Shown piece by piece: positions 1,520-62,223 of a DNA stretch of 64,000 nucleotides. Origin of the DNA: Meghimatium bilineatum (taxonomy: Eukaryota; Mollusca; Gastropoda; Stylommatophora; Philomycidae); assembly GCA_034231615.1 (NCBI GenBank), contig CM067310.1, forward strand, positions 2,311,501-2,375,500. The letters are read 5' to 3'. The first letter of the stretch is position 1. Each line of letters starts with the position of its first letter. The notes under the pieces are model-generated. The model saw only the letters and a list, made by a program, of their open reading frames with translations, made no database searches and was not told the origin of the DNA. The position numbers and the translations under genes were made by a program.

Positions 1520-1894
1520 CTAAATGTAAATTGAATTCAGAGGAAAAAAAATAATTGTAAATATGAACGAAGTTAGAGAACAAGCTATTTACTCGACACA
1601 TCGTCATGGCTTCCCGCGAACTTCCATACGTGCTCCGATCTCATATTCAGTATGTCATTCAGCGTGTCGCAACTGACTGTTCTCATTTTGTTGTTGTTGA
1701 CAACACTTATTTGATTCCTATATGCCGCTTATTTCTTGCTTCACTCCCAAGTCTTTCATTCCTAGCCACAGGCTTCATCAATGACTCCAACCATCTCTTC
1801 CAGTAGTTCTTGAAACGCTTTTTCTGTCCTTAACTTGAACGCTTACCTACATACAGTTTTACCATGGAACAGTCTCATTGGAAGACGTTCGTCT

Positions 1895-2032
1895 GACGAC
1901 GTGACCAGCACAACACGACGTGACCAGCCCAACACGACGTGACCAGCCCAAACACGACGTGACCAGCCCAAACACGACGTGACCAGTCCAACACGACGTG
2001 ACCAGCCCAACACGACGTGACCAGCCCAACAC
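1895..2032. repeat. 19-bp tandem array
   Basis: Unit CCCAACACGACGTGACCAG, seven copies, next to a SINE. Confidence 0.9.
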
Positions 2033-2094
2033 TATTGAGACATGACCAGCAAGCCGTGAATACTTACCAACGTTTGTTTCAATTATGAATACTT

Positions 2095-2385
2095 TTAGGT
2101 TTCATTAGCGCCCGTATTTTACAGGGGCTCGAAATGGTAGTAAAGAATAGCAACACTATTTACGTTCCATGCATATTGTAAGAGGCGAATAAGAAGGGAT
2201 AGGCTTCTCATACCATGTAATTGTCAAATCCAGAATCCATACTGAAATCTAATGTGTCAGGCGGAGAGGCGCATATATCGCAGCCCAATTGTAAACCGTG
2301 CCACAACGAATTACGTTCTCTTGACTACATCCTGCTGATCTGCAGGAGTTTGAGAATGAACACATAAGAAAACGTCCGTTATCCT
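2095..2385 (+). mobile_element. Core-SINE copy
   Basis: Shares with about ten other copies the order GCCCGTATxTT, AGCAACACTxTTTAC, TxGTAAGAGGCGAxTAAG, GATGTGTCAGGC, ATATCGCAGC, GACTACATCCTGCTGATCTG and GGAGTTTGAGAATGAAC. Located in the TRPC intron after exon 2440. Confidence 0.8.
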
Positions 2386-2439
2386 ACACAGTATCTAAGC
2401 TAGACAGCGCACAATACATCAACAGTAAATGTAACTTAC

Positions 2440-2549
2440 CGATAATCCACAAACTCATCAGTATCTCCGTAACTCGCGGCGTGTCCACTCTCAGAGGAAA
2501 GTCCATGTTAAACACTGTTTCGTTATTGATTTTACGAAACTCCAGATAA
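2440..2549 (-). CDS. TRPC: TRPC exon, S1-S2 loop and S2
   Basis: The acceptor is CTACTTGCAG before 2549 and the donor ATCG|GTAAGT after 2440. It enters with one base left of a split codon, then 36 codons beginning YLEFRKINNETVFNMDFPLR, then RVTEILMSLWII. Asn-Glu-Thr is a potential N-glycosylation sequon, as expected for the extracellular S1-S2 loop. The hydrophobic end is S2 and joins through Gly to MICQEC in the next exon, like VWVLGMMWSEC in vertebrate TRPC. A 33-bp array starts only 21 bases upstream of the acceptor. Confidence 0.9.
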
Positions 2550-2570
2550 CTGCAAGTAGAAAGTCAGAAA

Positions 2571-2727
2571 ACGCAATCATGGGACCACTTAAACGGTAAG
2601 AAAACACAATCATGGGACCACTTAAACGGTAAGAAAACACAATCATGGGACCACTTAAACGGTAAGAAAACACAATCATGGGACCACTTAAACGGTAAGA
2701 AAGCACAATCATGGGACGACTTAAACG
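2571..2727. repeat. 33-bp array next to TRPC acceptor
   Basis: Five copies with core GGGACCACTTAAACGGTAAG. Starts 21 bases upstream of the acceptor of exon 2440-2549. Confidence 0.95.
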
Positions 2728-2780
2728 GTAAATTTAACTGTATAATCAATGATATGTCATTATAACTCATTATCATTAAT

Positions 2781-3264
2781 AGACGGACAATTGATATAAT
2801 AGACGGACAATTGATATAATAGACGGACAATTGATATAATAGACGGACAATTGATATAATAGACGGACAATTGATATAATAGACGGACAATTGATATAAT
2901 AGACGGACAATTGATATAATAGACGGACAACTGATATAATAGACGGACAATTGATATAATAGACGGACAATTGATATAATAGACGGACAACTGATATAAT
3001 AGACGGACAATTGATATAATAGACGGACAATTGATATAATAGACGGACAATTGATATAATAGACGGACAATTGATATAATAGACGGACAATTGATATAAT
3101 AGACGGACAATTGATATAATAGACGGACAACTGATATAATAGACGGACAATTGATATAATAGACGGACAATTGATATAATAGACGGACAACTGATATAAT
3201 AGACGGACAATTGATATAATAGACGGACAACTGATATAATAGACGGACAATTGATATAATAGAC
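2781..3264. repeat. 20-bp tandem array, 24 copies
   Basis: Unit AGACGGACAATTGATATAAT, with a T/C variant (CAACTG) in about five copies. Otherwise almost perfect, so it is young. Confidence 0.97.
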
Positions 3265-4374: not shown

Positions 4375-4612
4375 TAACCAATAGAGCCTATTGCCATGTG
4401 ACGTATTCCTTCCAGAACGTTGTCTTCCCAATGAACTCTCTGAACCTCTCTCTGTCTGGGGCTATGTGGCTTGCATTTTCTAGCGATGTATTCATGTTAT
4501 CTTTAATGTCGTCAGTCCATCGTCTTCTTGGTCTGCCCTTTCTCCTCTACCCAGGTACTCTTCCCTCCATTATTTGTCTTTCTATAGAGCCTATAGTCCT
4601 GCAAAAACATTA
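4375..4612 (-). mobile_element. LINE 3' end, same family as 8.4-kb copy
   Basis: The reverse strand encodes RPRRRWTDDIKDNMNTSLEN and ends KTTFWKEYVT, nearly identical to the 8.4- and 27.8-kb copies. The 20-bp tail is not expanded here. 5' truncated at about 4612, directly next to another LINE fragment on the opposite strand. Confidence 0.8.
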
Positions 4613-8380: not shown

Positions 8381-8930
8381 TAAATGTGTTATGTGACGTA
8401 TGTGTGTGTCATGTGACGTATGTGTGTGTCATGTGACGTATGTGTGTGTCATGTGACGTATGTGTGTGTCATGTGACGTATTCCTTCCAGAACGTTGTCT
8501 TCCCAATGAACTCTCTGAACCTCTCTCTGTCTTGGGCGATGTGGCTTGCATTTTCTAGCGATGTATTCATGTTATCTTTAATGTCGTCAGTCCATCGTCT
8601 TCTTGGTCTGCCTCTTCTCCTCTACCCAGGTACTCTTCTCTCCATTATTTGTCTTTCTAAACAGTTGTGTCTCTTAATATGACCAAACAGGCGTAGTTTT
8701 CTTTTTGTTATTGTGTTTAGTAACCAACACTCTGGAATATTCAGTGTGTTTATAATATCTGAGTTTCTGATTTTATCCTTCCATGATATTCTAAGTATCT
8801 TTCTGTAGCATTTCATCCCGAAGGCATTGATATTCTTTGCCGCTGTTTTACTTAGGGCCAATGTTTCACAGCCGTATGTTGCAACCGGAAAAATAAAAGT
8901 TTGTAACATTAGCACTTTCATTTCTATTTA
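8380..8930 (-). mobile_element. LINE 3' end (RT C-terminal region, RTE/CR1-like)
   Basis: The frame 8921-8622 gives FPVATYGCETLALSKTAAKN, then FGMKCYRKILRISWKDK and LFGHIKRHNCLERQIMERR, the conserved post-RT tail of many LINEs. It continues through RGRPRRRWTDDIKDNMN to KTTFWKEYVT. The 3' end is a 20-bp tandem tail (8386-8480) built of TATGTGTGTGTCATGTGACG. The same tail marks the copy at 27.8 kb. Located in a TRPC intron, same strand as the gene. Confidence 0.85.
8386..8480. repeat. 20-bp LINE 3' tail repeat
   Basis: Unit TATGTGTGTGTCATGTGACG, about 4.5 copies, at the 3' end of the LINE 8380-8930; the same unit at 27782-27842. Confidence 0.9.
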
Positions 8931-9124: not shown

Positions 9125-10062
9125 AACACCCGTTGCATTCCGAAATACAGAAAGTTAAAGGCAGCAGACTCAAGAGAGGAAGGTCGTGGATGGGACGTGC
9201 TGAGGATGTCATACAAAGCGTGTGCAGATTACAGGATGTGGCAGCAGGTGCGGAATGGATAGGTCTACCCACAGATTTCGAAACTTGTTTGAGAGTAGTA
9301 ATATCACTTAGCAGGGAATGCAGAGAATGGTGTCCCACAGCTGTGGAGAAAGAAGTGCAGGCTTTAATCAGTGAGAATACCAAAGAGGGGGATGTGATTA
9401 TATACACTGATGGATCTGTAATTAGGCATGTTCGCATTGCTTGGGCCTTTATAGCTCAGTGCGCAGGTGAAACGATCAAGGAGGAAAATGGTGCCTTTGC
9501 GGTAACTACGAGTAGTGTGACCATGGAGACTATGGCGGTGACCAAGGCATTTGAGTAGCTACGCACACAGAAGGTAACGCAGGTCTGCATCTTGAGTGAC
9601 TCTATGAGTATGATAAAGAAGGTACAAGTGGGTCTCGTTCGCGAACAGTGGATTGAGGCCTTGAGAAATGCGAGCTTGAAAGCGGTTACATTTATTTTCG
9701 TTCCGGGACATGTGGGCGTTCGATGCAATGAAAGAGCGGATCAACTGGCATCGTGTGCGATTGTGGCAAAGAGCGATGGGGCAATGGATCGCGCTGACGT
9801 TTTGAACTCCTTAAGAGATATAACACGCGAGAGTGAGACTAATGTGGATGATGATTCCTTTTCAATGGCTAGGATTAAAGATCAGGGATGGAGATGCGGT
9901 GTTGCTAGAGGTGAACATTTTGGAGGGCGCAGAAGAATGATGGTCAGCCAGCATAGGACCGGTACTGTCAGCAAAAGTGTGATGGCGGATACACTCAAGG
10001 AGAGATCGGAGCAACTATGGATGTGTCCAGTTTGCAGTGAAGATGATCCGACGACTAACTAA
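9125..10062 (+). pseudogene. Non-LTR retrotransposon RNase H region, one nonsense codon
   Basis: The frame from 9133 to a TAA at 10060-10062 encodes the C-terminal RNase H domain of a LINE. Visible catalytic landmarks are YTDGSV (Asp), METMAV (Glu), ILSDSMSM (Asp) and GHVGVRCNERADQLAS (His, Asp), followed by a tail with RRTGTVS-like residues and CPVCSEDDPTTN. A TAG at 9556-9558 replaces the Trp codon present in the otherwise very similar copy at 51315-52034. The element ends in a 3' (ACTA)n tail at 10056-10083. It is inserted antisense in a TRPC intron. The upstream RT part is missing (5' truncated). Confidence 0.9.
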
Positions 10063-13259: not shown

Positions 13260-13850
13260 GATACAGTGGGAGGTTGAGAACGAAAATAAGGATGTAGATG
13301 GCTTTAGCGTCTTTGTCAAGACTAACTGTGATTTGGAAAAGCAACATCAATGTTGGAGTGAAAATCAAACTGTATAAGTCGCTGATGCTTTCTGTTGTGT
13401 TGTATGGTTGTGAGAGTTGGACACTCACTGCGGACATGGAGAGAAGATTACAGGATTTCGAGTACAAATTCTGCAGACGAATTCTAAAAATTTCCTATAG
13501 GGAACATAAGACCAATGTGTACGTAAGAAATAAAGTAGAGATGTGTGCAGGTGTCCAGTAACCATTGCTTTCAATAGTGTAACGACGAAAATTAGCATGG
13601 TTTGGACATGTACGCAGGCACGATTCCTTGTCAAAAACAATACTGCAGGGAACTGTCGAGGGTAGAAGAAGCAGAGGGGGACAAATAAAGGCATGGACAG
13701 ACAACATCAAGGAATGGAATGGGCAAGATATTTCCACACTCATCCGCATCGCTGAGGATAGAATTCGCTGAAAGACTCTGTGTGCTGAGGCATCCAATGT
13801 GGTACCCCTACAACCCTGAAGGTTACGGGTTTATTGATTGATTGAAAGGG
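13260..13850 (+). mobile_element. LINE 3' end in TRPC intron
   Basis: Plus-strand frames show KIKLYKSLMLSVVLYGCESW, LTADMERRLQDFEYKFCRRI and, after a stop at 13559, RRKLAWFGHVRRHDSLSK and GGQIKAWTDNIKEWNGQDIS. The 3' end carries a short TTGATTGATTGA tail near 13831-13843. This is the reference copy for recognising the arrays at 51.1, 53.0 and 61.7 kb. Confidence 0.85.
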
Positions 13851-18364: not shown

Positions 18365-18660
18365 ATACAAATAGCCCGTATGTTGCCAGGGTCGGAAAGG
18401 AGAACAAATAATAGTGATGCTGTTACCTGTCATGTACGTTGTAAGACGAGACTAAGGATTTTTTAGGGGTGAAATTGGCTATGTCATCCCATAAAGGGTC
18501 AGAATAACCAAGATAGCACGATGAAATCGGATGTGTCAGATCGAAAGGCTCAGATATCGCAGTCAAGCTGTGAACCATTCCGTGATTCCATTCAGCGCAT
18601 TCCGTTCTCTGGACCACATCCTGTTAATCTGCAGGAGTTTGAGAATGAACGTTGAAGAAT
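18365..18660 (+). mobile_element. Core-SINE copy
   Basis: Full-length form: AGCCCGTATGTTGCCAGG, core CGTTGTAAGACGAGACTAAG, CCCATAAAGGGTCAGA, GATGTGTCAGATCGAAAGG, and the 3' end GAGTTTGAGAATGAACG. Confidence 0.8.
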
Positions 18661-27767: not shown

Positions 27768-28200
27768 AGCTGTCATGTAACGTATGTGTGTGTCATGTGA
27801 CGTATGTGTGTGTCATGTGACGTATGTGTGTGTCATGTGACGTATTCCTTCCAGAACGTTGTCTTCCCAATGAACTCTCTGAACCTCTCTCTGTCGTGGG
27901 CGATGTGGCTTGCATTTTCTAGCGATGTATTCATGTTATCTTTAATGTCGTCAGTCCATCGTCTTCTTGGTCTGCCCTTTCTCCTGGTCTCAGTTACTCT
28001 TCTCTCCATTATTTGTCTTTCTAAAGAGTTGTGTCTCTTTATATGACCAAACAGGCGTAGTTTTCTATTTGTTATTGTGTTTAGTCACCAACACTCTGGA
28101 TTCTTCAATGTGTTTATAATATCTGAGTTTCTGATGTTATCCTTCCATTATATTCTAAGTATTTTTCTATAGCATTTCAGCTCGAAGGCGTTGATCTTCT
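27768..28200 (-). mobile_element. LINE 3' end with 20-bp tandem tail
   Basis: Same family and same 3' tail unit as 8380-8930: the reverse strand encodes RPRRRWTDDIKDNMNTSLEN and KTTFWKEYVT, followed by TATGTGTGTGTCATGTGACG repeats (27782-27842). Confidence 0.8.
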
Positions 28201-33765: not shown

Positions 33766-34135
33766 TTACTGATTGTCACAAATATAATAATTAAATCTAA
33801 GCTCCAGGTTGGAATTAGGGAACAGCACGCATAGTACTTCAATCATTTTACTAGCAAAGTCATTAAATACTATTTATTAGGTGCGTTTTTTGTGGGGAAA
33901 TGCCGTGTCCCAACAATTTTTATCTGGTAATTACCACATTTTTTCATTAGAATTTTGATTACCATTATGTGGAAAATCGTTAAAGGGTTTTCCCCACCTT
34001 TTCCTAAATACTAAAATACTTTTCATAAATACAATGTTTCAAACATACCTCCCCGCCCCCCAACAGCATGTTTGATGGCATAGATCAGAGAAATAATACA
34101 ATCTGCTTATGTAGAGTAACATCGAAAATATCGTC

Positions 34136-34335
34136 TTCTTTTTCTTCTGAGTTCCTTCTCACATTCCTGCATATTAGCAGGATGTAGTCCAAAGAACGAA
34201 ATATGTTGTGTCATTGTGTACATATTAGCTGCGGTATCTGCACCTTTCGGACAGACACATCCAACTTCAGCATCGCCTTGGAATCACTTTGATCCTATAT
34301 GAGATGAGACAGCGAACTCCACCCCATATCCTCCA
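34136..34335 (-). mobile_element. Core-SINE copy, 5' truncated
   Basis: Reverse strand: starts with the TTCTTCT tail complement, then TTAGCAGGATGTAGTCC, TCTGCACCTTTCGGACAGAC and the rest of the core-SINE 3' half. Confidence 0.75.
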
Positions 34336-34404
34336 TATAAACCCCATATAAACCAGAGACATGGAAATCTATGACATTCGCCATATGTGCCGTCTTTGGC
34401 CCTA

Positions 34405-42489: not shown

Positions 42490-42775
42490 CAGTTGCTACT
42501 CTCGGCTGTGTGTTGCAATGGAACGAAAGTACCAAATAGTAACGAAGTTGCGACCCGTCATGTATGCCGCAAGAAGCGACTAATGGATTTTGGGAGGAGT
42601 AGTAGGCTGTACCATTGCATATTGGGTTAAAGTCGTACAGACAGAAGTCGTGCTGATGTCTTGCTAAAAGTCGTAGATATCGCCGCCAAGCTGTAAACAA
42701 TAACACATCATATTCTGTTCTCCAGACAACGTCCTGACAATCAACAGGAATTTGAGAACGACAGTAGAAGAATAA
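42490..42775 (+). mobile_element. Core-SINE copy, diverged
   Basis: TATGCCGCAAGAAGCGACTA, ATATCGCCGCCAAGCTGTAA and GGAATTTGAGAACGACAGTA give the expected order, with about 25-30% divergence judged by eye. Confidence 0.7.
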
Positions 42776-43284: not shown

Positions 43285-43575
43285 GGCAACAGATCGCCCG
43301 TGTGTTGCCGAGGCCCGAAAAGGGAGAAAAGAATAGCAACACTGTTTACCTTCCACTAATGTCGTAAAAGGCGACTAAGGAGATTGTGGGATGGAGTTGG
43401 CTGTCCCATCCCATATAGTCAGTGACCCAAAGCCATGCTGAAGTAGGATGTGTCAGGCCGAAAGGCGCAGATATCGCAGCAATGATGTAAACCATGACAC
43501 AACGCATTCCGTTCTCCAGACTACATCCTGCTAATCTGCAGGAGTTTGAGAACAAACGCAGAAGAATTAGAAGAA
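43285..43575 (+). mobile_element. Core-SINE copy with GAA tail
   Basis: Full length from CGCCCGTGTGTTGCCGAGG to a (GAA)n tail. The core TGTCGTAAAAGGCGACTAAG is intact. A LINE follows immediately. Confidence 0.8.
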
Positions 43576-45640: not shown

Positions 45641-45647
45641 AGAAATT

Positions 45648-47245
45648 GTGTGTGAGAAGTGTGTGAGAAGTGTGTGAGAAGTGTGTGAGATGTGTGTGAG
45701 ATGTGTGAGAGATGTGTGTGGGATGTGTGTGGGATGTGTGAGAGATGTGTGTGAGATGTGTGTGGGATGTGTGTGAGATGTGTGTGGGATGTGTGTGGGA
45801 TGTGTGTGAGATGTGTGTGAGATGTGTGTGAGATGTGTGTGAGATGTGTGTGAGATGTGTGTGAGATGTGTGTGAGATGTGTGTGAGATGTGTGTGAGAA
45901 GTGTGTGAGAAGTGTGTGAGAAGTGTGTGAGATGTGTGTGAGATGTGTGAGAGATGTGTGTGAGATGTGTGTGAGATGTGTGTGAGAAGTGTGTGAGATG
46001 TGTGTGAGATGTGTGTGAGATGTGTGTGAGATGTGTGTGAGATGTGTGTGAGAAGTGTGTGAGAAGTGTGTGAGATGTGTGTGAGATGTGTGTGAGAAGT
46101 GTGTGAGATGTGTGTGAGAAGTGTGTGAGAAGTGTGTGGGATGTGTGTGAGAAGTGTGTGAGAAGTGTGTGGGATGTGTGTGAGAAGTGTGTGAGATGTG
46201 TGTGAGATGTGTGTGGGATGTGTGTGAGATGTGTGTGAGATGTGTGTGAGATGTGTGTGAGATGTGTGTGAGATGTGTGTGAGAAGTGTGTGAGAAGTGT
46301 GTGAGATGTGTGTGAGATGTGTGTGAGATGTGTGTGGGATGTGTGTGAGATGTGTGTGGGATGTGTGTGAGATGTGTGTGAGATGTGTGTGAGATGTGTG
46401 TGAGATGTGTGAGAGATGTGTGTGAGATGTGTGTGAGATGTGTGTGAGATGTGTGTGAGATGTGTGTGAGAAGTGTGTGAGAAGTGTGTGAGATGTGTGT
46501 GAGATGTGTGTGAGATGTGTGTGGGATGTGTGTGAGATGTGTGTGGGATGTGTGTGGGATGTGTGTGAGATGTGTGTGAGAAGTGTGTGAGAAGTGTGTG
46601 AGATGTGTGTGAGATGTGTGTGAGATGTGTGTGGGATGTGTGTGAGATGTGTGTGGGATGTGTGTGGGATGTGTGTGAGATGTGTGTGGGATGTGTGTGG
46701 GATGTGTGTGAGATGTGTGTGAGAAGTGTGTGAGAAGTGTGTGAGATGTGTGTGAGATGTGTGTGAGATGTGTGTGGGATGTGTGTGAGATGTGTGTGGG
46801 ATGTGTGTGAGATGTGTGTGGGATGTGTGAGAGATGTGTGTGAGAAGTGTGTGAGAAGTGTGTGAGATGTGTGTGGGATGTGTGTGAGATGTGTGTGAGA
46901 TGTGTGTGGGATGTGTGTGAGATGTGTGTGGGATGTGTGTGAGATGTGTGTGAGATGTGTGTGGGATGTGTGAGAGATGTGTGTGAGAAGTGTGTGAGAG
47001 GATTGTGTGAGATGTGTGTGGGATGTGTGTGAGATGTGTGAGAGATGTGTGTGAGATGTGTGAGAGATGTGTGTGAGATGTGTGTGAGATGTGTGTGGGA
47101 TGTGTGAGAGATGTGTGTGAGATGTGTGTGGGATGTGTGTGAGATGTGTGTGAGATGTGTGAGAGATGTGTGTGAGATGTGTGAGAGATGTGTGTGAGAT
47201 GTGTGTGAGATGTGTGTGAGATGTGTGTGAGATGTATGTGGGATG
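45648..47245. repeat. 11-bp array, about 1.6 kb
   Basis: Unit GTGTGTGAGAT with AGAA and GGGAT variants, about 145 copies. The reverse strand lacks stops in two frames, giving 545- and 561-codon frames of His/Thr/Ser repeats that are by-products of the unit. Confidence 0.97.
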
Positions 47246-47249
47246 TGTG

Positions 47250-47679
47250 TTGACACTATATATACATATTGACATACTTATTGATATACTTTTTGACATA
47301 TATCGCATATTAAGTAAACTTGAAACCAGCGACTATTTTAATGAACAATTTAGTGCATCGAGTCTATACCATTTCAAATTCACATAAATAAAATTCATTC
47401 ATAAGCGTTATATATTCGCATAGCTACATCATTTTTGAAGTTGGGCAAAGTTAGTGAAACGTGCTACAGAAGTCTGTTTAAATTCAATAAGTATAATTTA
47501 AAAAAAAATAATTCCATGTCCAGAATTTATAAATGGGATTAAAGGGGTGGGGGTTGTGCAAATAACGTATACGTGGAATACCTGGCATAAGAAATAAGAG
47601 AGACACATTAATACTTCTTCAGGTTGATTCATCGTCATCTGCTTTGTAGTTGATACCTATCTACCTAGCTACTTACCTA

Positions 47680-50404: not shown

Positions 50405-50637
50405 AATCTAAGGGAGCACGACTCCATTCCGCACCAGGTAGCACATCTCCAGGCGCACGACTCCATCCCGCACCAGGTAGCACATCTCCAGGCGCACGAC
50501 TCCATTCCGCACCAGGTAGCACATCTCCAGGCGCACGACTCCATTCCGCACCAGGTAGCACATCTCCAGGCGCACGACTCCATCCCGCACCAGGTAGCAC
50601 ATCTCCAGGCGCACGACTCCATTCCGCACCAGGTAGC
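50405..50637. repeat. 39-bp array in an RNase H LINE, six copies
   Basis: Core CACGACTCCATTCCGCACCA. The unit is the complement of the LINE codons around AAGAEW, seen unrepeated at 9237-9275. Confidence 0.95.
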
Positions 50638-50694
50638 GGAAAGTTGAGTAAATTAGTTAAAATGCTCATTATTGTATGCATCTTCCATGTATTC

Positions 50695-50935
50695 TGCATT
50701 GATTCTCAAACTCCTGCACATCAGCAGGATGTAGTCCAGAGAACAGAATACGTTATAGAAGTTGACTTCTTGCTTGTGATATCTACACCCTTCAGACTAG
50801 CATATCAGACTTCAGCACGGCTTGAGTCACTGTGACCCTCTAAGGGATTGGCAGCCAACTCCACCCTCCCTCCCCCTCAACAGCTGCTTAGTCTCCTCTT
50901 ACGACATACATCACCATCATGCGATAACACAGCAG
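50695..50935 (-). mobile_element. Core-SINE copy
   Basis: Reverse strand; CAGCAGGATGTAGTCCAGAG, then TCTTACGACATACA complement of the core near 50900. Confidence 0.75.
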
Positions 50936-51050: not shown

Positions 51051-51290
51051 TTTTTGTAGAATTCGTCTGTAACATTTGTATTCGAAAGCCTGTAATAGTC
51101 TCTCCTTGTCTGTAACATTTGTATTCGAAAGCCTGTAATAGTCTCTCCTTGTCTGTAACATTTGTATTTGAAAGCCTGTAATAGTCTCTCCACGTCCGCA
51201 GTTTCTCAAAAGATAGACAATTCAGACAGTTGATAACTTTTCACATTTATGCAGCCAAATGACACAAGATGGAGATACAACAAACGAGAT
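51050..51290 (-). mobile_element. LINE fragment with a 43-bp triplication
   Basis: The reverse strand encodes RTWRDYYRLSNTNV and matches the ADMERRLQDFEYKFCRRILK codons of the 13.3-kb LINE, repeated three times at a 43-bp period. The flank up to 51290 matches 61575-61680 closely. Confidence 0.75.
51055..51195. repeat. 43-bp LINE-derived triplication (copy 1)
   Basis: Three units with core GAAAGCCTGTAATAGTCTCT; mirrors 61677-61805. Confidence 0.93.
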
Positions 51291-51309: not shown

Positions 51310-52115
51310 TCAAGTTAGTTAGTCGTCGGATCATCATCACTGCAAACTGGACACATCCATAGTTGCTCCGATCTCTCCTTGAGTGTATCTGCCATCACAC
51401 TTCTGCTGACAGTACCGGTCCTACGCTGGTTGACCATCATTCTTCTGCACCCTCCAAAATGTTCACCTCTAGCAACACCGCATTTCAATCCCTGATCTTT
51501 AATCCTAGCCATTGAAAAGGAATCATCATCCACATTAGTCTCACTCTCGCGTGTTATTTCTCTTAAGGAGTTCAAAACGTCAGCGCGATCCATTGCCCCA
51601 TCGCCCTTTGCCACAATCGCACACGATGCCAGTTGATCCGCTCTTTCATTGCCTCGAATGCCCACATGTCCCGGCACGAAAATAAATGTAACCGCTTTCA
51701 AGCTCGCATTTCTCAAGGCCTCAATCCACTGTTCGCGAACGAGACCCACTTGTACCTTCTTAATCATACTCATAGAGTCACTCAAGATGCAGACCTGCGT
51801 TACTTTCTGTGTGCGAAGCCACTCAAATGCCTTGGTCACCGCCATAGTCTCCATAGTCATACTACTCGTAGTGACCGCAAAGGCACCACTTTCCTCCTTG
51901 ATCGTTTTACCTGCGCACTGAGTTGTAAAGGCCCAAGCACTGCGAACATGCCTAATTACAGATCCATCAGTGTATATAATCACATCCCCCTCTTTGGTAT
52001 TCTCACTGATTAAAGCCTGCACTTCTTTCTCCACAGCTGTGGGACACCATTTTCTGCATTATCTGCTAAGTGATATTACTACTCTCAAACAAGTTTCGAA
52101 ATCTTATAAATTGAA
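51310..52115 (-). mobile_element. LINE 3' end with intact RNase H domain
   Basis: The open frame 52034-51315 has all RNase H catalytic positions (TDGS, METMAV, LSDSMSM, GHVGIRGNERADQLAS) and ends CPVCSDDDPTTN before the TAA. It is the best preserved of three copies here (the others at 9125-10062 and 49735-50400). The 3' end is marked by GTTAGTTAG at 51314, the complement of the (ACTA)n tail. The element is 5' truncated near 52115, where an unrelated 18-bp array begins. Near-identity with the 9.1-kb copy suggests fairly recent insertion. Confidence 0.9.
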
Positions 52116-52124
52116 TGTTTGTCC

Positions 52125-52285
52125 TCAAGTGCATTCAACCAGCTAACAAACATTCAACCAGCTAACAAACATTCAACCAGCTAACAAACATTCAACCAGC
52201 TAACAAACATTCAACCAGCTAACAAACATTCAACCAGCTAACAAACATTCAACCAGCTAACAAACATTCAACCAGCTAACAAACA
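52125..52285. repeat. 18-bp array, nine copies
   Basis: Unit CATTCAACCAGCTAACAA, perfect. Confidence 0.95.
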
Positions 52286-52309
52286 TTTGGAAATCAAACA
52301 CAAGAAGTA

Positions 52310-52809: not shown

Positions 52810-53290
52810 TCACAACCATACAGGACAACCATACAGGACAACCATACAGGACAACCATACAGGACAATAGTAAGTATACAGGACAACCATACAGGACAAT
52901 AGTAAGTATACAGGACAACCATACTGGACAATAGTAAGTATACAGGACAACCATACAGGACAATAGTAAGTATACAGGACAACCATACAGGACAATAGTA
53001 AGTATACAGGACAACCATACAGGACAACCATACAGGACAATAGTAAGTATACAGGACAACCATACAGGACAATAGTAAGTATACAGGACAACCATACAGG
53101 ACAACCATAGAGGACAATAGTAAGTATACAGGACAACCATACAGGACAACCATACAGGACAATAGTAAGTATACAGGACAACCATAGAGGACAATAGTAA
53201 GTATACAGGACAACCATACAGGACAATAGTAAGTATACAGGACAACCATACAGGACAACCATACAGGACAACCATACAGGACAATAGTAA
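52810..53290. repeat. Compound 13/19-bp array in LINE
   Basis: Units CAACCATACAGGA and CAATAGTAAGTATACAGGA alternate irregularly, about 30 in all; the reverse strand reads VLYGC/TIVLYGC, the RT-tail motif. Confidence 0.93.
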
Positions 53291-53334
53291 GTACAAGTGA
53301 GTTGTACAATTTGATTTTCACTCCAAGACTCATG

Positions 53335-53575
53335 TTACACACAATAAACTCATGTTACACACAATAAACTCATGTTACACACAATAAACTCATGTTACAC
53401 ACAATAAACTCATGTTACACACAATAAACTCATGTTACACACTATAAACTCATGTTACACACTATAAACTCATGTTACACACTATAAACTCATGGTACAC
53501 ACTATAAACTCATGTTACACACTATAAACTGATGTTACACACTATAAACTCATGTTACACACTATAAACTCATGC
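53335..53575. repeat. 20-bp array, twelve copies
   Basis: Unit ACTCATGTTACACACAATAA, with ACACTATAA in the later half. Grown from the CNMSL codons of the same LINE. Confidence 0.95.
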
Positions 53576-55184: not shown

Positions 55185-55440
55185 TAGGGAAGCAAAGAAC
55201 AGCTACACTGTTGCTTGCCATTCATGTTTTGGTAAGAGGTGACTAAGGAGATTTTGGGGATGGGTTGGCTGTCCCATCTCAGAAATCAAAGTGACCTAAA
55301 GCCAAGTTGATGTTGGATGTGTCAGGCTGAAAAGTGTAGATATTGCAGGCAAGCTGTACACAATGGCACAAATAATTCTGTTCTATGGCCAGCATCCTGC
55401 TAATCTGCAGGATTGTGAGAATGAGACCTGAAGAAGAAGA
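55185..55440 (+). mobile_element. Core-SINE copy
   Basis: GGGAAGCAAAGAACAGCTAC, GGTAAGAGGTGACTAAGGAG, GGATGTGTCAGGCTGAAAAG and a GAAGAAGAA tail. It begins right at the edge of the 48-bp array. Confidence 0.75.
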
Positions 55441-55509
55441 ACTACAACAACAAAATGTTGGTGTTGATGGCCACCTCCTGAAAAGTTACCAATTTTCAAG
55501 GAATTGATG

Positions 55510-56714: not shown

Positions 56715-57107
56715 TAACATAAATATTTATTTGGTCTGACCAAGTTGTTATAAGGGGATTTCACTGTATATATACATAAATATTTAGTTGGTCCGACAAA
56801 GTTGTTATAAGGGGATTTCACTGTATACATATCTGTTGTTTTCCTCACATTTGTGTCTGGTCATTCCAGTGTCCAAAGAAATGAACGTGCAAACAGGCGT
56901 GGTACGGCAATCACGGGTCTGGGCAATCAATGGACAGAACTGATGTTCAGAATGCTCTTGTGGAAAGTGAGTGACTGATGCAAGAAATGATTGTGTATCT
57001 GCAATCTTGACCAGAACAGCCTCACTGTTTACCTTCCATGTATGGTGTATGAGACGGCTCAGGAAATTATGCGGTGGAATTCCATAAAGGGTCAAAGTGA
57101 TTTGGAA
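56715..57107 (-). mobile_element. Second copy of duplicated block
   Basis: Contains two versions of the GTTGTTATAAGGGGATTTCA end (56745 and 56803), then the same 330 bp as at 54090-54418. This copy retains GAAATGAACGTGC where the other has GAAACGTGC. Confidence 0.55.
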
Positions 57108-57245
57108 GCCACGCTGAAGTCTGATGTGTCAAACTGAAAGGCACGGATATCACAGCAAAGCTGTAAACCATGAAACCATTCTGTTCTCCGGCCTACATCC
57201 TGCTAATGTACAGGAGTTTGAGAATGAATGCAGACAAACTAAGAA
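57010..57245 (+). mobile_element. Core-SINE copy
   Basis: CTCACTGTTTACCTTCCATG, TGGTGTATGAGACGGCTCAG, GATGTGTCAAACTGAAAGGC and GAGTTTGAGAATGAATGCAG. Its 5' half also occurs, truncated, at 54325-54420 as part of a duplicated block. Confidence 0.75.
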
Positions 57246-57344
57246 GATCAGGCTACAGGAATATCATGTCAAGAGGGTTGTGATTAAACAAGAATGTTAT
57301 GCAGGTAACTTGGGGACTGGTAAACCAACATATGGTGTAGTCAG

Positions 57345-58939: not shown

Positions 58940-59394
58940 CTGTGAGAGAGAGAAGACAAATCAGTCAAGAATTCATTAGATTGGTCAGCACCATTGCATT
59001 ACAATGAGACTTTGTAAACAGGATAAAATAATAGTCAAAGGGAAGTAATTGGTTTTATTAGAAACAAGTCAGGACCATTACATTATAACGGGACTGCACT
59101 CTACTACTTTTTTTCTTTTTTTTATGGAAGAATTTCCCAGAGTTTTGTTAAGTTCCAGGTGCCTAAATATCACTGTAGGATGCAATGCTATGTGCTGGAC
59201 AGTCTTCTACTCCAGAGAGAGCTTTGCTGTGACTTTCTGGTAATTTCCAGGCATATATTTATCCATCTTGATTCTTGAGCAGGAACCTATATCACTGAAC
59301 AATAATATGTGTTTGCTGCAACATAACACTGAAATGTAACAGGCAAAAATTGGGAGCAGAGTAATAATATATCTATATTTAGCTCTGCTGTGTG

Positions 59395-59760
59395 AATGTC
59401 AGTAACATTAGGAGTGAGTAACATCATGAGTCAGTAACATTAGGAGTGAGTAACATCATGAGTCAGTAACATCGGGAGTTAGAAACATTAGGAGTCAGTA
59501 ACATCAGGAGTTAGAGACATTATGAGTCAGTAACATCGGGAGTTAGAGACATTATGAGTCAGTAACATCAGGAGTTAGAGACATTAGGAGTCAGTAACAT
59601 CGGGAGTTAGAGACATTATGAGTCAGTAACATCGGGAGTTAGAGACATTATGAGTCAGTAACATCGGGAGTTAGAAACATTAGGAATCAGCAACGTCAGG
59701 AGTTAGAGACATCAGGAGTCAGCAACATTAGGAGTCAGTAACATCCGGAGTTAGACATCT
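59395..59760. repeat. 32-bp array from RT GVRQG region
   Basis: Core AGTCAGTAACATCGGGAGTT, about 11 units. Runs directly into CAGCAACAAGAGGAGTTAGA at 59770, the RT sequence it copies. Confidence 0.92.
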
Positions 59761-59980
59761 GCTATGTGACCGCCAGCAACAAGAGGAGTTAGACAGGGAG
59801 TGTGTCATATCACCATTATTGTTTATTATTTATACAAATAATATTACAAAATTAGTAGAAACATCACCAGATGTTTACCATCCAAATAACCTAACTGAAC
59901 TCCTCTTTGGTTGATGAGGAGTGCCTACTCCACAGTTCAAGTGAAGAGCTGCAAGATCATGTAAATCTACTCAACGAAAG

Positions 59981-60463
59981 CTGCCTCAATCACAACATGA
60001 AGATCAACATAGAGAAACCAAAAGCTGCCTCAATCACAACATGAAGATCAACATAGAGAAACCAAAAGCTGCCTCAATCACAACATGAAGATCAACATAG
60101 AGAAACCAAAAGCTGCCTCAATCACAACACGAAGATCAACATAGAGAAACCAAAAGCTGCCTCAATCACAACATGAAGATCAACATAGAGAAACCAAAAG
60201 CTGCCTCAATCACAACATGAAGATCAACATAGAGAAACCAAAAGCTGCCTCAATCACAACATGAAGATCAACATAGAGAAACCAAAAGCTGCCTCAATCA
60301 CAACACGAAGATCAACATAGAGAAACCAAAAGCTGCCTCAATCACAACATGAAGATCAACATAGAGAAACCAAAAGCTGCCTCAATCACAACATGAAGAT
60401 CAACATAGAGAAACCAAAAGCTGCCTCAATCACAACACGAAGATCAACATAGAGAAACCAAAA
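59981..60463. repeat. 44-bp array from RT MKINIEK region, eleven copies
   Basis: Core CACAACATGAAGATCAACAT. Every unit encodes NMKINIEKPK in one frame; the 44-bp period destroys the reading frame. Confidence 0.97.
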
Positions 60464-60529
60464 GTAATGTCAGAAGTAGGCAGAAAAATCCAAATACACT
60501 CAACATAAAAATAAATGATCAGCTACTGA

Positions 60530-60835
60530 AACAAGTGTAGGAATCTAGGGACAAGTGCAGGAATCTAGGGACAAGTGCGGGAATCTAGGGACAAGTGCAG
60601 GAATCTAGGGACAAGTGCAGGAATCTAGGGACAAGTGCAGGAATCTAGGGACAAGTGCAGGAATCTAGGGACAAGTGCAGGAATCTAGGGACAAGTGCAG
60701 GAATCTAGGGACAAGTGCAGGAATCTAGGGACAAGTGCAGGAATCTAGGGACAAGTGCAGGAATCTAGGGACAAGTGCAGGAATCTAGGGACAAGTGCAG
60801 GAATCTAGGGACAAGTGCAGGAATCTAGGGACACA
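60530..60835. repeat. 20-bp array from RT LGT region, fifteen copies
   Basis: Unit ACAAGTGCAGGAATCTAGGG; LINEs elsewhere have KQVNEFTYLGS at this place. Confidence 0.96.
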
Positions 60836-61492: not shown

Positions 61493-62223
61493 GTCGTAGT
61501 TTGGTATATTTTCTTATTCTTTTTGATTTCCAGATATTTGTTATGTGGTTGAATGCACTTGATGCCAACACAATAATAATAGAAATCTCATTTGTCGCAC
61601 CTCCATCTTGTGTGTCATTTTGCTGCCTAAATATGAAAAGTTATCAACTGTCTGAATTGTTCTTCGTTGAGAAACTGTGGACAAGGCAAGATTATTACAG
61701 GCTTTCAAATACAAATGTTATAGACAAGGCGAGACTATTACGGGCTTTCAAATACAAATGTTACAGACAAGGCGAGACTATTACGGGCTTTCAAATACAA
61801 ATGTTACAGACAAATTCGATGAATCATCTGTAGAGAGTATTAGGCAAATGTGTATATAAGAAATAAAATAGAGATGTTTACAGGTCCACAAGAAGCATTT
61901 ACTTTCAACAGTTCAACAGTGACATGACGACAACTGGCATGGACATGTATGCCGACATAATTTCTTATTTAAAAAAACTGATATTGTAGAGAATGGTAGA
62001 AGGTGGAAGAAACAGGAGGACAATGGAAGAAACAGAGGAGGACAATGAAAAGCATGGACAGACAACATCAAGGACTGGATAGGACATAAATTTTCCTCAA
62101 ATATTGTTGAAGAAAGAAATCGTTGGAGTATTCTGTGCAATTATGTATTAGTTAAACAGTCTTAGTTTGGTATATTTACATATAGTTTTTGACTTGCAGA
62201 TGTTTGTTAGGTGGTTGAATCAT
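61490..62223 (+). mobile_element. LINE 3' end with 43-bp triplication
   Basis: Contains the WTRQDYYRLSNTNV-type codons three times (61677-61805), then a degenerate tail equivalent to KAWTDNIKEW...STL near 62050-62100. A flank beginning CAGTCGTAGTTTGGTATA at 61491 recurs at 62158, so part of the region is itself duplicated. Confidence 0.7.
61677..61805. repeat. 43-bp LINE-derived triplication (copy 2)
   Basis: Core GGCTTTCAAATACAAATGTT, three units, same register as 51055-51195. Confidence 0.93.

Follow-up and report, generated by a model that had tools for sequence, protein, structure and literature searches.

Three minisatellites made of reverse transcriptase codons within one decayed LINE copy of Meghimatium bilineatum

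A LINE reverse transcriptase fragment of about 420 bp in the genome of Meghimatium bilineatum is split by three head-to-tail arrays, which follow one another in the order of the reverse transcriptase. These arrays are very probably minisatellites that were born in place in a decayed LINE copy after its insertion, and that lie close together as a result of the array density of the window, by which we mean the whole stretch of 64,000 nucleotides, C13:2311501–2375500, that was analysed. The preliminary description had placed them inside 1.5 kb of one dead element; a fragment of an element it is, but its LINE content comes to just that 420 bp. The case for an origin in this copy is carried by searches for the array junctions through the assembly and by a deletion that is private to the copy.

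The LINE fragment and its three arrays

Another genomic copy of the family, L015 (positions 1850–3060), served as the reference. The focal copy covers reference positions 284 to about 703 and is collinear with them at 79–85% identity. The pieces of the locus, in order, are:

59371..59397, plus strand: left flank without LINE match; TTAGCTCTGCTGTGTGA recurs imperfectly to the right of array 1 (59751–59769)
59398..59735, plus strand: array 1, 32 bp × 10.6 (TRF, 91% matches), from the VTSGVRQ segment
59774..59976, plus strand: LINE reverse transcriptase piece, L015 reference 284–484 (84.7% identity, E=6e-55)
59977..60464, plus strand: array 2, 44 bp × 11.1 (TRF, 98% matches), from the NESCLNHNMKINIEKPK segment
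60465..60530, plus strand: LINE reverse transcriptase piece (INDQLLKQ), reference about 529–593
60531..60833, plus strand: array 3, 20 bp × 15.1 (TRF, 98% matches), from the KQVQEF.YLG segment
60838..60879, plus strand: LINE piece to the right of array 3, reference 662–703 (78.6%)

The sequence from the last 44-bp unit through 60530 corresponds to L015 reference 485–593 at 81.6% identity, and about 45 bp present in other copies are absent before the 662–703 piece. Translated between the arrays, the locus yields the reverse transcriptase pieces CVISPLLFIIYTNNITK..., DEECLLHSSSEELQDHVNLLNES... and INDQLLKQV. The focal pieces alone are matched weakly by Pfam, one to RVT_1 at E=0.057 and the other to nothing. 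The assignment to a reverse transcriptase of non-LTR type is made through L015, the homologous open stretch of which contains RVT_1 (E=1.2e-11) and has PDB matches among R2 retrotransposon proteins (best E=5.1e-5). LINE-like sequence at about 61.5–62.2 kb was considered as a further part of the focal copy and rejected, having no match to the L015 reference at E<=0.01. Since it lacks that match and the stretch at 61.8–62.1 kb matches 13.48–13.66 and 11.55–11.86 kb of the window, the latter is taken to be another LINE family.

With several head-to-tail units of 32, 44 and 20 bp, within the range of about 10–100 bp, all three arrays are minisatellites. Not one array of period at least 10 and at least 3 copies was obtained in twenty 64-kb order-1 Markov sequences. 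TRF and the alignment to L015 agree with the preliminary description that the units derive from the reverse transcriptase codons they interrupt, in reverse transcriptase order. The three unit lengths also hold, except that 32 bp is not the basic unit of array 1, being itself a dimer of two diverged 16-bp units. The units of array 1 have the LINE sequence TCAGTAACATCAGGAGTTAGACA in common (reference 283–305). The 44-bp unit of array 2 corresponds to reference about 485–528, with AAAG at both ends of the array (488 = 11 × 44 + 4), and the 20-bp unit of array 3 to reference about 594–620 minus 8 bp, with ACA at both ends. At one T/C site the successive 44-bp units read TTTC TTTC TTC, which points to the joint duplication of four units at a time.

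The recurrence of the left flank involves 17–19 bases with a local alignment score of 11, as high as which only 2 of 2000 27-mers drawn at random from the window scored, and about 12 bases of the recurring stretch are not LINE-like. Positions 59200–59397 had no match to the loci of 39 other copies of the family, and the sequence upstream of 59774 had none to the L015 reference. A duplication of the host/LINE 5' junction around array 1 is suggestive only, and the TTAG part may be LINE-derived.

Array density, direct repeats and other repeats of the window

A first look at the LINE family gave 2,557 candidates, of which 40 were scored; the fortieth was the focal copy and the 39 further copies were fetched. 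Because they were picked by similarity, the sample is biased against copies broken by arrays.

Arrays of period at least 10 make up 27% of the bases of the window, in 66 intervals of which 46 hold at least 3 copies. For a clustering simulation each of these 46 arrays was collapsed to one unit, leaving 49.5 kb. Three array starts within 383 bp are expected 2.2 times in such sequence and were seen twice, the focal case included (P of at least one, 0.87). We therefore attribute the closeness of the three arrays to how densely the window is filled with such arrays, not to a special copy. The LINE stretches of the 39 copies contained 7 arrays of at least 3 units in 39.8 kb, distributed over 6 copies, which gives 0.18/kb as a lower bound, the sample being biased towards unbroken copies; the flanks contained 49 in 133.7 kb (0.37/kb). 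At 0.18/kb a stretch of 420 bp should hold about 0.08 arrays, a figure that counts against the density explanation. The "unusually high rate" of local duplication that had been claimed for the focal copy nevertheless finds no support in the count of triplets, 2.2 expected against 2 seen, or in the comparison of LINE stretches with flanks.

Per uncollapsed kb there were 0.72 arrays in the window, 0.53 in six 5-kb samples within 80 kb of it, 0.30 in six distant 5-kb samples and 0.29 in the 39 loci. The corresponding shares of bases in arrays were 0.27, 0.35, 0.30 and 0.11, the distant samples totalling 30 kb with one of the six wholly array. At least one array of at least 3 units was present at 25 of the 39 other loci. 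The window holds many separate arrays in a genome that is itself rich in tandem DNA. Richer by count than the other samples, the window is not richer than the distant ones by share of bases, which speaks against a simple regional excess. On the strength of the simulated clustering and the compared densities, a special property of the focal copy was rejected; any unusual rate would have to be ascribed to the region or the genome at most, not to the focal element.

Three of the other copies contain arrays with recognisable founder ends. In L009 an independent array of 47 bp × 9.1 shares its LINE stretch with array 2 but is set in another register, and is bounded by AAGATCA, a heptamer that is found 47 bp apart in 25 of the 39 copies, L009 included. 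L010 and L039 have 33-bp arrays bounded by ACAAGAA, which occurs 33 bp apart in 9 of the 39, again including these two. In both cases, then, unexpanded copies carry the direct repeat at the spacing of the period. That L010 and L039 are sisters, which would explain their 33-bp arrays, was not supported, their mutual identity of 0.844 being below the median for L010 (0.865) and slightly above that for L039 (0.830).

Within 3 mismatches, the 47-bp junction has 22 matches genome-wide, 8 on C22 (L009), 13 at C10:1.24 Mb and 1 on C9. The 33-bp junction (LINE reference 865–898) has 2,114 (965 + 1149), at spacings that include 33, 81 and 114 bp. The approximately 100 of these that were listed are spread over more than 30 separate places, for instance C25:2136754–2139144 (a run of about 2.4 kb) and C4:3013026–3013275. 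From the matches it would seem that the 33-bp LINE codons became widespread tandem DNA, the site having been amplified repeatedly or partly inherited.

These recurrences, together with the presence of three arrays on 420 bp of LINE sequence, could be read to mean that the focal copy, or LINE sequence generally, is a hotspot with its own raised duplication rate: two independent arrays (44 bp in the focal copy, 47 bp in L009) occupy the same 50 bp or so, C10:1.24 Mb has the 47-bp array again, and the matches listed for the 33-bp junction are scattered over the many places just mentioned. We regard a hotspot as improbable, because the LINE stretches are poorer in arrays than their flanks, albeit in a biased sample, and because a triplet is expected from the array density of the window.

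Remainders, the partial units at array ends, were determined with the mismatch-tolerant ends of TRF in 34 clean arrays from the window and from L009–L059; exact matching gave many large values and is unreliable where end units have mutated. A remainder of 3–10 bp was found in 16 of the 34, as against 8.9 if remainders were uniform (P=0.007), and one above 10 bp in 11. Random duplications in unique sequence of the window had a bounding match of at least 3 bp in 7% of cases. The focal remainders are AAAG (4 bp) for array 2 and ACA (3 bp) for array 3, each alone short enough for chance and, as repeats, apparently too short to prove a founder step singly, while array 1 is too diverged to reveal its founder ends. 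The agreement of repeat spacing with period at 47 and 33 bp and the excess of short remainders fit an origin in which short direct repeats gave rise to a founder duplication that later expanded.

Further LINE remnants in the window likewise carry arrays of their own sequence. On the minus strand at about 50.9–53.6 kb lies a second LINE family, whose VLYGC and 43-bp stretches are single in the copy at 13.3–13.85 kb. The arrays concerned, and two others with single counterparts, are:

50416–50637: 39-bp array, with a single-copy counterpart at 9235–9382
51065–51191, minus strand: 43-bp array of about 3 units, as at 61680–61813; single at 13427–13490
52132–52287: 19-bp array, with one unit at 61534–61568
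52831..53293, minus strand: array of VLYGC codons in another LINE remnant, with a single-copy counterpart at 13343–13433
53328..53574, minus strand: 20-bp array directly upstream of the VLYGC array in the same remnant (TRF and translation), reading into LINE sequence (HEFIVCNMSLGVKIKLYNS), with a unit that may itself be of LINE origin
61680..61813, plus strand: 43-bp × 3.1 array of the other LINE family, with a single-copy counterpart at 13427–13490

The 43-bp arrays at 51065 and 61680, being common to two copies, were either inherited or formed twice, so that some arrays of the window are inherited or recurrent. A LINE-like repeat is present in two 94%-identical copies that end in 20-bp arrays, at 8385–8481 (4.8 units) and 27771–27845 (3.8 units), and in a third copy at 4392 with one 20-bp unit; the array was either carried with the end of the element or re-formed there.

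Several other repeats were recorded. A LINE part is found in opposite orientations at 9273–10053 and 51324–52104; to judge from their 96.4% identity the two copies are probably recent. The second copy contains an RNase H domain (E=8e-15), and a search of viral contigs for relatives of this LINE found none. Positions 45647–47250 consist of an 11-bp unit × 145.6, open in all three minus-strand frames (HTHLTHISHTS-like peptide) and not evidently a gene. A dispersed repeat of about 200–290 bp, SINE-like in size and without a tRNA match, has at least 8 copies in the window (2109–2370, 18367–18660, 34131–34337, 42502–42773, 43295–43566, 50657–50914, 55188–55450 and 57013–57258). Rfam at gathering scores and ARAGORN reported nothing in the window. 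Among the fetched loci, L046 and L047, about 750 kb apart on C11, have the same LINE coordinates and two flanking arrays in common (40 bp × 5.0 and 32 bp × 2.1), which suggests a segmental duplication.

Origin and age of the focal arrays

The sites of arrays 1, 2 and 3 are array-free in 36, 36 and 34 of the 39 other copies, respectively. Single HSPs spanned them in 36, 37 and 34 copies, the rest not being covered in one alignment, and the sole array at a focal site among the spanned copies is that of L009, over the site of array 2. The junctions of the three dimers were searched as patterns in the whole assembly (1.61 Gb, 32 contigs) at up to 3 mismatches. All matches, 6 for array 1, 10 for array 2 and 14 for array 3, lay inside the respective focal array, and the backward controls gave 0 matches genome-wide. 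At this tolerance the arrays are thus minisatellites derived from a transposable element and private to one copy of it, the units matching the element and the other copies being unexpanded.

All 15 units of array 3 carry an 8-bp deletion. Of the 39 other copies, 31 were alignable over this site and none of them has the deletion; the gap of L023 there is larger and of another kind. In a genome search at up to 3 mismatches, the left edge of the array, deletion included, matched exactly at the focal locus only. Seven other matches have 3 mismatches each and over their 28 bases are like undeleted family sequence. Since its unit holds a deletion private to the focal copy, array 3 is placed in that copy after decay had begun; within the limits of the searches it is apparently built from sequence that exists nowhere else.

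The three independent amplifications of the preliminary description, and their occurrence after insertion, are upheld by the confinement of the junctions to the focal locus, by the array-free copies and by the private deletion. The finding that would have spoken for a source element, the same arrays in other copies, was made neither among the 39 copies nor, within 3 mismatches, in the junction search of 1.61 Gb. Inheritance from a source element, the arrays being copied along with it, may occur elsewhere, to go by the 20-bp arrays at 8385 and 27771, which flank 94%-identical copies while the third copy (4392) has a single unit, and by the 2,114 matches of the 33-bp junction of this very family. 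For the focal arrays it is highly improbable and was rejected for this assembly, as the three junctions are found nowhere else within 3 mismatches and the 20-bp unit bears the private deletion. Assembly or sequencing artefacts, a concern where 27% of a window lies in arrays that are difficult to assemble, are just as improbable given the ordered unit variants (the TTTC TTTC TTC series of array 2 and the graded divergence of array 1), the clean unique flanks and the arrays of at least 3 units at 25 of the 39 other loci.

Mean unit identity is 0.883 in array 1, 0.990 in array 2 and 0.987 in array 3. For the LINE parts of the focal copy, identity is 0.870 to the closest of the sampled copies, with a median of 0.843. 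The last homogenisation of arrays 2 and 3 is therefore dated long after insertion, their units being so much more alike than the LINE parts are to other copies. Array 1 looks older than the other two, judged on unit divergence.

For the birth of the arrays in place we propose the following course. A LINE copy, incomplete at its 5' and 3' ends, would have landed at the locus and then decayed. Short stretches of reverse transcriptase codons at three points would have undergone tandem duplication and then grown into minisatellites where they stood. Slipped-strand mispairing or microhomology-mediated repair would have joined direct repeats already existing in the LINE (AAAG, ACA) in the founder duplications, a step for which there is partial evidence, and later expansion may have proceeded by slippage or unequal exchange between units.

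Known systems and significance

In the human genome 7,276 arrays, or 23% of minisatellites and satellites, are derived from transposable elements, and the same authors state that postulated mechanisms account for just 6% of the arrays so derived (Ahmed and Liang 2012, PMC3389668). As in the minisatellites of Alu, B1 or MaLR, short segments of a mobile element have here been amplified head to tail. Unlike those cases, the 420-bp LINE fragment has three separate arrays, and unexpanded copies in the same genome serve as before-states. The birth of minisatellites by slippage between short direct repeats was put forward by Haber and Louis (1998) and Taylor and Breden (2000), as described in PMC6947457 and PMC3389668. 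The present arrays resemble these models, in the form in which they are described, in the unit bounded by a short direct repeat, the incomplete last unit and the presumed later expansion. The 3–4 bp repeats of arrays 2 and 3 are below the 5–10 bp given for the Haber and Louis model, which the 7-bp repeats of L009, L010 and L039 fit.

Satellites grown from LINE ORF2, for example PROsat of Phodopus and HinfI of chicken CR1, are likewise tandem DNA sourced from LINE coding sequence (PMC9659126). Unlike these, the focal arrays are short, undispersed and restricted to a single locus; the 33-bp arrays of the family elsewhere come nearer to that case. Going by these three accounts (PMC3389668, PMC6947457, PMC9659126), minisatellites and satellites from transposable element sequence, LINE ORF2 included, are already well known. 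In a limited search of the open-licence literature, no description of a single LINE copy with several private arrays was found. The event is of a known kind; the focal case illustrates it cleanly but is in itself ordinary, and fits its repeat-rich neighbourhood.

To our knowledge, minisatellite founders are rarely observed, the state before duplication being usually lost. Many arrays in a diverged LINE family set both states side by side and make the direct-repeat model testable quantitatively. It is conceivable, though we hold it only tentatively, that minisatellites are born at a markedly raised rate in this lineage, that short direct repeats of the LINE predict where an array starts and how long its unit is, and that the LINE codons at the 33-bp site (ACAAGAA) seeded arrays many times and gave rise to kilobase-long tandem DNA. 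If the birth rate is indeed raised, the many dead LINE copies would be recorders of array birth, before and after the event.
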